A stretch of DNA of 64,000 bases from Verrucomicrobiota bacterium. GTDB lineage: Bacteria > Verrucomicrobiota > Verrucomicrobiia > Opitutales > UBA953. The position numbers and the translations under genes are program-made. Positions 19,597 through 64,000 of this stretch are shown piece after piece (position 1 is the first letter of the stretch; the number at the start of each line of letters is the position of its first letter). Location of the stretch: positions 1 to 64,000 of the forward strand of contig BGOK01000011.1 in NCBI GenBank assembly GCA_003569205.1, read 5' to 3'. The notes under the pieces were generated by a model. It made no database searches, had not been told where the DNA came from, and saw only the letters and a list, made by a program, of their open reading frames with translations.

Positions 19597-19603
19597 GAGG
19601 TAA

Positions 19604-19645
19604 TAGGGGATAGTGGGTAGGGGGTAGGGGATAGGGGATAGGGGG
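19604..19645 (+). repeat. Heptanucleotide array, G-rich arm (6 in-phase units)
   Basis: TAGGGGA TAGTGGG TAGGGGG TAGGGGA TAGGGGA TAGGGGG. Confidence 0.95.
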
Positions 19646-19664
19646 TGGCTCGATGCCATTACGG

Positions 19665-19710
19665 CCTTCCCCCCTTTCCCATCCCCTATGACCTATCCCC
19701 TAGCCCCGTA
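19665..19710 (-). repeat. Heptanucleotide array, inverted arm
   Basis: Reverse complement reads ..CTAGGGGATAGGTCATAGGGGATGGGAAAGGGGGGAAGG (TAGGGGA TAGGTCA TAGGGGA TGGGAAA ..). Confidence 0.85.
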
Positions 19711-19715
19711 TTTCC

Positions 19716-30366: not shown

Positions 30367-30372
30367 GGGGCG

Positions 30373-30435
30373 GAGTACGGAGTACAGAGTACAGAGTGCA
30401 GAGTACAGAGTGCAGAGTACAGAGGACAGAGTACA
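30373..30435 (+). repeat. Heptanucleotide array (9 in-phase units)
   Basis: GAGTACG GAGTACA GAGTACA GAGTGCA GAGTACA GAGTGCA GAGTACA GAGGACA GAGTACA. Confidence 0.95.
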
Positions 30436-30489
30436 GGGTAGCATCGCTTCCTCGTCATCGACTATCCATCGATCTCGCCACTTAACTTC

Positions 30490-44727: not shown

Positions 44728-44752
44728 GGGGTGTGATGAAAAAGGGGGCGAA

Positions 44753-44780
44753 AAAGGGGAAAGGGGACAGGGGATGGGGT
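44753..44780 (+). repeat. Short heptanucleotide array
   Basis: AAAGGGG AAAGGGG ACAGGGG ATGGGGT, in the 58-nt gap between two minus-strand genes. Confidence 0.7.
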
Positions 44781-63053: not shown

Positions 63054-63064
63054 GGGGTAGGGGT

Positions 63065-63148
63065 GTGAGGGGGTGGGGGAGTCAGGGGTATGACTCGTTG
63101 AGGCTCAGCGTCTTCTAAATTGGGTGAGGGGGTGGGGGTGTCAAGGGT
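63065..63148 (+). repeat. Two G-rich 25-nt direct repeats (63065-63089, 63124-63148)
   Basis: GTGAGGGGGTGGGGGAGTCAGGGGT and GTGAGGGGGTGGGGGTGTCAAGGGT, 23/25 identical. Confidence 0.85.
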
Positions 63149-63211
63149 CCTGGGTAGTACTATTTTCTAAAACCTTTCGTAAATCATGGGGTTTCAAAGA
63201 TAACCGTCCCC

Positions 63212-63781
63212 ATGAAGAACATCCTGCCTCTGCTCCTCGCCGCTGCCCTTGGTTCCGCTGCCACCTATTTCATCATGGACTCGAAGCAGGCCTCCGCCCC
63301 TGCCGCGAAGGCCGTGAAGGCCGCTCCCCGCGTCGCCGGCGGCAATACCTCTGCCGAACCGAAGGCCGTAGCCCCTGGAGCCGATGCTCAGCGTCCAACG
63401 CCGGGTGGCTTCACGAGCGGAACTAAAGGTAAGAGCAGTGGTTGGCTACCCGAAGAAATTCCCGGCGTCAGCGCCGAGCAGTTCACCAAGTGCCGCACCG
63501 CCTTGATGTCGACCTTCCGTAACGAAACCGTCCGGGCCGCCTTCACCAAGGTTAACGAAATCCGTAAGGAACTCGAAAACGCCACTGACGAGGAAAAGAA
63601 GAATATCGAAGCCGATATTGCCGAAGCCTCCAAGGAAGCTCGCCAGGCCCAGAAGGCCGCCATTACCGCGGCCGATCCCGACATCACCGATGAGACGGTG
63701 GACAAGGTCCTCGATGCCATGGACGAAATGCGCAAGCTGCGCATGGCCCAGGGCGGCACCAAGGGTGGTAAGGGGAAGTAA
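63212..63781 (+). CDS. Small secreted/anchored helical protein of unknown function (Spy/CpxP-like look)
   Basis: N-terminal hydrophobic anchor, long charged helix NEIRKELENATDEEKKNIEADIAEASKEARQAQKA. Confidence 0.7.
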   Translation: MKNILPLLLAAALGSAATYFIMDSKQASAPAAKAVKAAPRVAGGNTSAEPKAVAPGADAQRPTPGGFTSGTKGKSSGWLPEEIPGVSAEQFTKCRTALMSTFRNETVRAAFTKVNEIRKELENATDEEKKNIEADIAEASKEARQAQKAAITAADPDITDETVDKVLDAMDEMRKLRMAQGGTKGGKGK

Positions 63782-63786
63782 GAGAC

Positions 63787-63877
63787 TAGGGGATGGGGGA
63801 TAGGGGGTAGGGGAAAGGGGTAAGGGGGTAGGGGAAGAGTACGGATTACGGATTACAGAGTACAGAGTACGGATTAC
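63787..63877 (+). repeat. Composite heptanucleotide array, 13 in-phase units of both sub-types
   Basis: TAGGGGA TGGGGGA TAGGGGG TAGGGGA AAGGGGT AAGGGGG TAGGGGA AGAGTAC GGATTAC GGATTAC AGAGTAC AGAGTAC GGATTAC. Confidence 0.95.
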
Positions 63878-63926
63878 GGACTTCGAGAAATCGAAAACTG
63901 TAATTCTTACTCCGTTACTTGTTTTG

Positions 63927-63960
63927 TCCCAACCCCCAACCCCCAACCCCCATCCCCCTC
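63927..63960 (-). repeat. Inverted C-rich heptanucleotide arm
   Basis: GTCCCAACCCCCAACCCCCAACCCCCATCCCCCTC; reverse strand TTGGGGG units at 7-nt period. Confidence 0.9.
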
Positions 63961-64000
63961 AGTAGCCTACCCTTCCTTCCGGGCGTCGAGTTCCATCCAG

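Follow-up and report, generated by a model that had tools for sequence, protein, structure and literature searches.

In many bacterial genomes, heptanucleotides are reported to be the most frequent of the long simple repeats; what they do is described as an open question (PMC4692102, PMC4679880). Rehm et al. 2015 described intergenic, G-rich heptads in Xanthomonas (GGGAATC) and Nostoc (GGGGA(C/T)T), also with the function stated to be unknown (PMC4692102). The G-rich strand of these repeats is in sense orientation where it follows a stop codon and antisense where it precedes a start codon, and few of them lie between divergent genes (PMC4692102). The Xanthomonas heptads occur as inverted (convergent) pairs at about 70 places per genome; inverted pairing is reported to be rare in Nostoc (PMC4692102). 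Both repeats form G4 in vitro (PMC4692102). The cyanobacterial STRR sequences of Calothrix and Nostoc, as cited in PMC4692102, are tandem heptanucleotides of several unit types per genome and are mainly intergenic. TAACTGA heptads, which are found in Beggiatoaceae, Cyanobacteria and Bacteroidetes, are likewise intergenic with many sets per genome, and they have one conserved unit, a position mostly just upstream of starts and almost no inverted sets (PMC4679880). Nothing specific was found in the literature on Verrucomicrobiota heptads; for a Methylacidiphilum genome, the only repeats of this sort to be reported are 54 short tandem repeats of low GC (PMC4210602).

Here we describe heptad arrays in a freshwater bacterium of the Verrucomicrobiota, whose genome is a MAG of 2.23 Mb in 34 contigs (labelled G000). 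The thiC protein of the window assigns it to Opitutales, with a TPA MAG labelled UBA953 (87%) and a Verrucomicrobia MAG, M_surface_9 (88%), as its best matches. The window is the whole stretch of 64,000 nucleotides, from one contig. The focal intergenic gap occupies 63782-63966. The flanking stops, at 63781 (plus-strand gene) and 63967 (minus-strand gene), face each other, and the gap therefore lies between convergent genes. Units were located by a scan for DRGGGGR and RGAKTAC with one mismatch allowed. The features are as follows.

63212-63781, plus strand: left flanking gene of 189 aa, from the list of open reading frames, with its stop 5 nt before the array.
63787-63835, plus strand: outer left arm of seven in-phase TAGGGGA-type heptads (sequence, TRF, unit scan).
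63836-63877, plus strand: inner left arm of six RGAKTAC heptads, AGAGTAC/GGATTAC (sequence, TRF, unit scan).
63878-63895, no strand: loop region according to the fold, in which TTCGAGAAATCGAA makes a small hairpin of its own.
About 63896-63923, minus strand: inner right arm, a decayed TAC-type stretch (minus-strand CAAGTAACGGAGTAAGAATTACAG) with two units recognised by the scan.
63927-63960, minus strand: outer right arm, CCCAACCCCCAACCCCCAACCCCCATCCCCC, made of TTGGGGG heptads when read from the minus strand (TRF 63928-63958).
63967-65775 on the contig, minus strand: gene of an ABC-F-like ATPase (Pfam), of which the window holds the 3' end (63967-64000).

A preliminary description of this DNA had read 63787-63877 as 13 in-phase 7-mers, seven of the TAGGGGA type and six of the TAC type (AGAGTAC/GGATTAC), and the unit scan reproduces this reading to the base. 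The two unit types are joined in phase with a spacing of 0, and TRF gives periods 7 and 21 for the left array. The mirrored architecture, with TTGGGGG units on the minus strand outside and the decayed TAC-type stretch inside, was likewise recovered from the sequence, TRF and the scan. The end of the outer right arm and the stop of the convergent gene are 6 nt apart. Because the genes are convergent, both have a purine-rich array at most 6 nt from their own stop. The G tracts of the outer left arm are four or five long, which makes it G-quadruplex-capable by sequence. The ABC-F-like protein contains two ABC_tran domains and ABC_tran_CTD (Pfam). For the 189-aa protein, a Pfam search gave no family above cut-off, and homologues are present in 35 of 41 genus genomes. 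This protein belongs to a family of paralogues that extends through the genus and matches nothing in Pfam, and paralogues stand in tandem at other loci, such as G000:C7:130132-132038. The divergent gap upstream of its gene has a stretch (window 63054-63211) that is G-rich and not 7-periodic and that contains a 16-nt repeat, GGGGTAGGGGAGTCAG.

The focal arrays are bacterial intergenic heptanucleotide SSRs of the Mrazek/Rehm class and are STRR-like; they are tandem, more frequent than expected by chance and intergenic. The STRR precedent that had been proposed for them holds, and the Xanthomonas GGGAATC / Nostoc GGGGA(C/T)T class (PMC4692102) is a closer one. With this class, the focal genus shares intergenic 7-nt arrays, inverted pairs and a G/purine strand that runs outward from genes. 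The units are different, however (here TAGGGGA, AGAGTAC and AGCGGTT), and so is the phylum; two unit types are nested in one gap, and within the Verrucomicrobiota genus one unit can stand in for another at orthologous gaps, or a hairpin without repeats can take the place of both. The cyanobacterial STRR also consist of tandem, multi-type, mainly intergenic heptads, but their lineage and units differ. Tandem intergenic heptads are common to the TAACTGA repeats and the present ones, whereas here the units vary and the arms are inverted. A further likeness is to intrinsic or bidirectional terminators, which share the gene-end hairpin, the convergent enrichment and the purine arm in first position; in contrast, the focal element lacks a U-tract, and its stem, built of tandem repeats, is very long. 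The kind of element is already known (PMC4692102, PMC4679880); new here are the lineage, the nesting of two units and the unit swaps at orthologous gaps.

The preliminary description had proposed, as checks, recurrence across the genome with an intergenic bias and an enrichment over shuffled gaps, and both were found. A 758-kb sample of G000 contains 63 period-7 arrays. Gaps make up 9% of this sample, yet they hold 60 of the 63, compared with 0-1 in shuffled gaps. Other periods from 2 to 13 mostly gave 0-5 arrays, with the highest counts for period 6 (9) and period 8 (8); period 14 is a harmonic of 7. In a second species, G017, 20 of 22 period-7 arrays lie in gaps. The pattern TACRGAKTACRGAKTAC has 64 matches in the whole genome versus 0 for the reversed control, and GGGGRDRGGGGRDRGGGG has 68, for which the reversed control is uninformative because the pattern is symmetric. 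Genes were called with our own hexamer-based procedure, in which starts are approximate and stops exact. The genus sample comprised more than 40 genomes. Three further arrays are present in the window.

19597-19715, no strand: a second element in the thiC-methyltransferase gap, with six TAGGGGA-type heptads and a C-rich partner arm (TRF, scan).
30367-30441, plus strand: a single-arm TAC-type array of about 10 units between convergent genes (TRF), with no hairpin partner and a fold z of about 0.
44752-44780, plus strand: a short G-type array with one arm only, flanked by two minus-strand genes (TRF).

Outside the genus, period 7 dominates as well. The thiC loci of about 80 genomes, most of them other Verrucomicrobiota with some Acidobacteriota and others, total 762 kb and contain 39 period-7 arrays, compared with at most 10 for each other period from 4 to 13 and 0 in a Markov control. 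The units beyond the genus are lineage-specific, and some arrays form inverted purine-then-pyrimidine pairs (L083, L091, L114, L118).

Other repeats were noted in the gaps of the genus. REP-like palindromes, such as GGTTGGCACGCAGTGCCAACCCTACC and GGTAGGGTCAGCACTGCGTGCTGACC, recur there, often beside heptads (L050:9292-9778, L053:14578-15062, L055:17366-17706 and many G000 and G017 gaps). A second tandem class has period 8, read by eye as GTGCAAAG (TTTGCACC), at L045:11140-11591, L050:17898-18171 and L053:14578-15062, with totals of 8 arrays for the G000 sample and 7 for that of G017. At L173:12214-12249 there is an isolated third heptad, CGTCTGA x5, which is absent from the G017 orthologue.

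The placement of the arrays follows the direction of the neighbouring genes. Arrays are present in 8 of 42 convergent gaps versus 1 of 136 divergent gaps (p = 4e-5). Since the first set of own-genome stretches was hit-selected, this class test was redone on the window, unselected own stretches and G017, to which these counts refer. The arrays are purine-rich outward from the nearer gene, whichever its direction, in 37 of 44 G000 gaps (p = 5e-6) and in 14 of 15 G017 gaps; when convergent gaps are left out, the proportion is 27/34. All nine gaps with both arm kinds have purine followed by pyrimidine. Beyond the genus, where gene calls are rough, the outward purine polarity is seen in only 16 of 25. 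Selection against Shine-Dalgarno mimicry was considered as the sole cause of the polarity and ruled out, as the polarity is clearest in convergent gaps, which have no start codons.

The RNA of the focal gap folds into a stable structure. The fold z is -5.5 for the plus strand and -5.4 for the minus strand, and 0 of 200 shuffles were equally stable. The G017 orthologue folds with z = -10.9 and the thiC-methyltransferase gap at 19597-19715 with -4.3. Convergent gaps in general have a median z of -3.0 with arrays versus -2.5 without, so the hairpin does not need arrays, because array-free convergent gaps fold about equally well. Divergent gaps have a median z of -0.1 and no hairpins. For codirectional gaps, the sense-strand z is -2.5 with arrays versus -0.9 without (not significant, p = 0.28), and the preference for folding on the sense strand in codirectional array gaps is also not significant (p = 0.19). 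A long stem is present in about one third to one half of the array gaps, and the remainder are single-armed; such arrays, lacking a partner and with z close to 0, are a common case (window 30367, L041, L042, L058). No terminator-like site was found within 63600-64000, and no T-tract follows either focal arm, so that the combination of stem-loop and T-tract that defines an intrinsic terminator is absent. The L050 and L053 array gaps contain a separate canonical terminator in addition. A search of the focal gap against Rfam 15 gave nothing above gathering; only miRNA-precursor models appeared, far below it, as is expected for a long hairpin.

Comparison of orthologous gaps showed that arrays are gained, lost and changed in copy number between relatives, as the preliminary description had proposed to check. 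The focal array is not an assembly accident, since arrays are present in the same gap of the independent G017, G044 and G009 assemblies; the contigs of G009 and G038 end in or before this gap. In G044, whose ABC-F protein is 97.5% identical, both arms are TAC-type, and all G units but one are gone. The outer arm is G-type in G017 and G009, and the inner part in G017 consists of a stem of about 17 bp without repeats. Farther members of the genus have another downstream gene and, read by eye, purine-left/pyrimidine-right arms composed of 12-mers (GAGGGCTGAATG-like), hexamers (GGGACA) or GAGTATC heptads. Because of these arms, neither the unit nor the unit length can be considered fixed, and the GGGACA hexamers in particular mean that 7 is not the sole unit length. 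Inverted arms of 12-nt units of about GAGGGCTGAATG were noted between convergent genes in the gap after the g189 homologue of L263 and L270, and inverted GGGACA arms after thiC or the 189-aa gene (L060, 6881 onward; L266 and L273, after the g189 homologue). Orthologous arrays differed by indels of 14 nt (G000 vs G022), 28 nt and 42 nt; a single indel measured 45 nt. Changes in multiples of seven are what slippage predicts. Among 143 orthologous gaps of G000 and G017, five arrays are found only in G000 and two only in G017.

From the shared phase, the two 7-mers had been suggested to be one family. This is not supported: the scan found about 15 neighbouring G-to-TAC junctions, and only about 2 are in phase, a rarity that rules out the argument from phase. 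Moreover, orthologous focal gaps carry one unit type without the other, TAC only in G044 and G arms with a decayed inner part in G017. Thus, on sequence comparison, TAGGGGA-type and RGAKTAC-type units do not appear to be one family, and they turn over separately in orthologous gaps. G-type and TAC-type arrays also tend towards different genome regions (permutation p = 0.016), and arrays as a whole are unevenly distributed over contigs (p = 0.001). The regional split separates contigs C4, C14 and C13 from C12 and C15, without a compositional difference. A chimeric MAG as the source of the two unit types was ruled out, since TAC-rich and G-rich contigs are alike in GC, GC3 and tetranucleotides. 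An inverted hairpin between convergent genes, at other loci often with one arm only, accounts for the mirrored layout better than a fixed composite element does.

The gap after thiC was compared in 27 genomes that have the same two flanking genes. TAGGGGA-type arms are found in five of them, AGCGGTT-type arms in 12 and a repeat-free hairpin in eight; one gap has mismatched arms and one is unclassified. The mismatched case is G009, with a TAGGGGA left arm and an AACCGCC right arm, and its hairpin is lost (z 0). The repeat-free hairpin spans the gap with 22 pairs, ten of which are changed on both sides, a number that none of the 500 shuffles and no slid control reached. The sense strand of this hairpin usually folds better. 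AGCGGTT arms are mostly invariant and have little covariation of their own (2/20 pairs). On a tree built from the two flanking proteins, AGCGGTT and repeat-free states interleave, and well-supported branches force 3-4 changes between them. Gap recombination between species is a possible cause of the interleaving and would leave our reading unchanged. Relatives keep a hairpin in the gap and exchange the repeat, which suggests that the hairpin, rather than the repeat sequence, is what matters.

We infer, at close to even confidence, that slippage-grown arrays serve as interchangeable stems of gene-end RNA hairpins that are terminator-like or 3'-protecting and have no U-tract. The gap-spanning inverted repeat has tandem heptad arrays as its arms, each of which may lengthen or shorten by whole 7-nt units through replication slippage. 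If both convergent genes are transcribed through the gap, the paired arms would form the stem of a long RNA hairpin, and in the transcript of either strand the purine-rich arm would precede its pyrimidine-rich complement. Such a hairpin would most likely act at the mRNA 3' ends of both genes, either as a bidirectional terminator free of a U-tract or as a block to 3'-exonucleases. Tandem repeats are well suited here, since a heptad stem that slips by one unit remains paired, and the repeat unit would be free to be swapped. In favour of this reading are the preference for convergent over divergent gaps, the outward purine polarity, the constant order of purine and pyrimidine arms, the stable folds of the focal gap and its G017 orthologue, the exchange with a covarying repeat-free hairpin after thiC and the copy changes in sevens. 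Against it stand the single-arm arrays, the equally good folding of convergent gaps that lack arrays, the non-significant differences in codirectional gaps, the lost hairpin of G009, the missing U-tract and the separate canonical terminators of some array gaps.

The strongest competitor is that the arrays are a neutral by-product of polymerase slippage under weak selection, with inverted arms made by template switching and no function. Copy changes in multiples of 7, gain and loss between close relatives (the five and two arrays private to G000 and G017 among 143 gaps), single-arm arrays and the replacement of units, including by 6- and 12-mers, are all consistent with it, as is the report that, among long SSRs, heptads are the most frequent class in many bacteria (Mrazek 2007, cited in both PMC4679880 and PMC4692102). 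However, slippage alone does not account for the rarity of arrays in divergent gaps, the strict purine-then-pyrimidine order or the interchange with a covarying non-repeat hairpin. We still give it about a third of the weight because of the single arms, the non-significant folding of codirectional gaps and the missing U-tract.

Other readings are much less probable. TAGGGGA arrays have tracts of at least four G spaced by 3 nt, and the related Xanthomonas and Nostoc repeats, which share the placement in sense after stops and antisense before starts, form G4 in vitro (PMC4692102); non-template G-tracts might thus stall RNA polymerase through a G-quadruplex or R-loop, or RNA G-quadruplexes might act at gene ends. 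AGAGTAC and AGCGGTT arrays, however, are unable to form the same G4, yet they have the same layout and take the place of the G type in orthologous gaps. The G-quadruplex is thus not the common function, and this reading is improbable. It is slightly more doubtful still that a sequence-specific or cold-shock-type protein binds the heptads, or that they switch neighbouring genes by their copy number: heptad spacing and CspB binding of heptad repeats are discussed in PMC4679880, and copy number differs between relatives, but divergent (promoter) gaps are avoided and the unit sequence is not conserved. Least probable of all is a mobile or REP/MITE-like dispersed element. Its inverted halves, dispersed intergenic copies and the other REP-like palindromes in the same gaps would fit, whereas the arrays have no fixed ends and no full-length consensus, their units differ by lineage, and orthologous differences are changes in unit number (14, 28, 42 nt) and decay, not clean insertions.

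The reading as gene-end hairpin stems can be extended, tentatively and with less than even confidence, to arrays across Verrucomicrobiota and other phyla. These may be slip-tolerant RNA stems in which a purine-first hairpin is selected and the unit (7-, 6- or 12-mer) can be replaced wholesale through slippage or arm-to-arm copying; we consider this rather unlikely to hold so widely. At the focal locus, both arms have two unit types nested in them, and a close relative has lost one of the two. The post-thiC gap is a natural experiment, with two heptad hairpins, one repeat-free covarying hairpin and one species with mismatched arms, and this range of alleles makes the question of hairpin or repeat directly testable. 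If true, the slip-tolerant stem would provide one function for a bacterial repeat class that has had none assigned.
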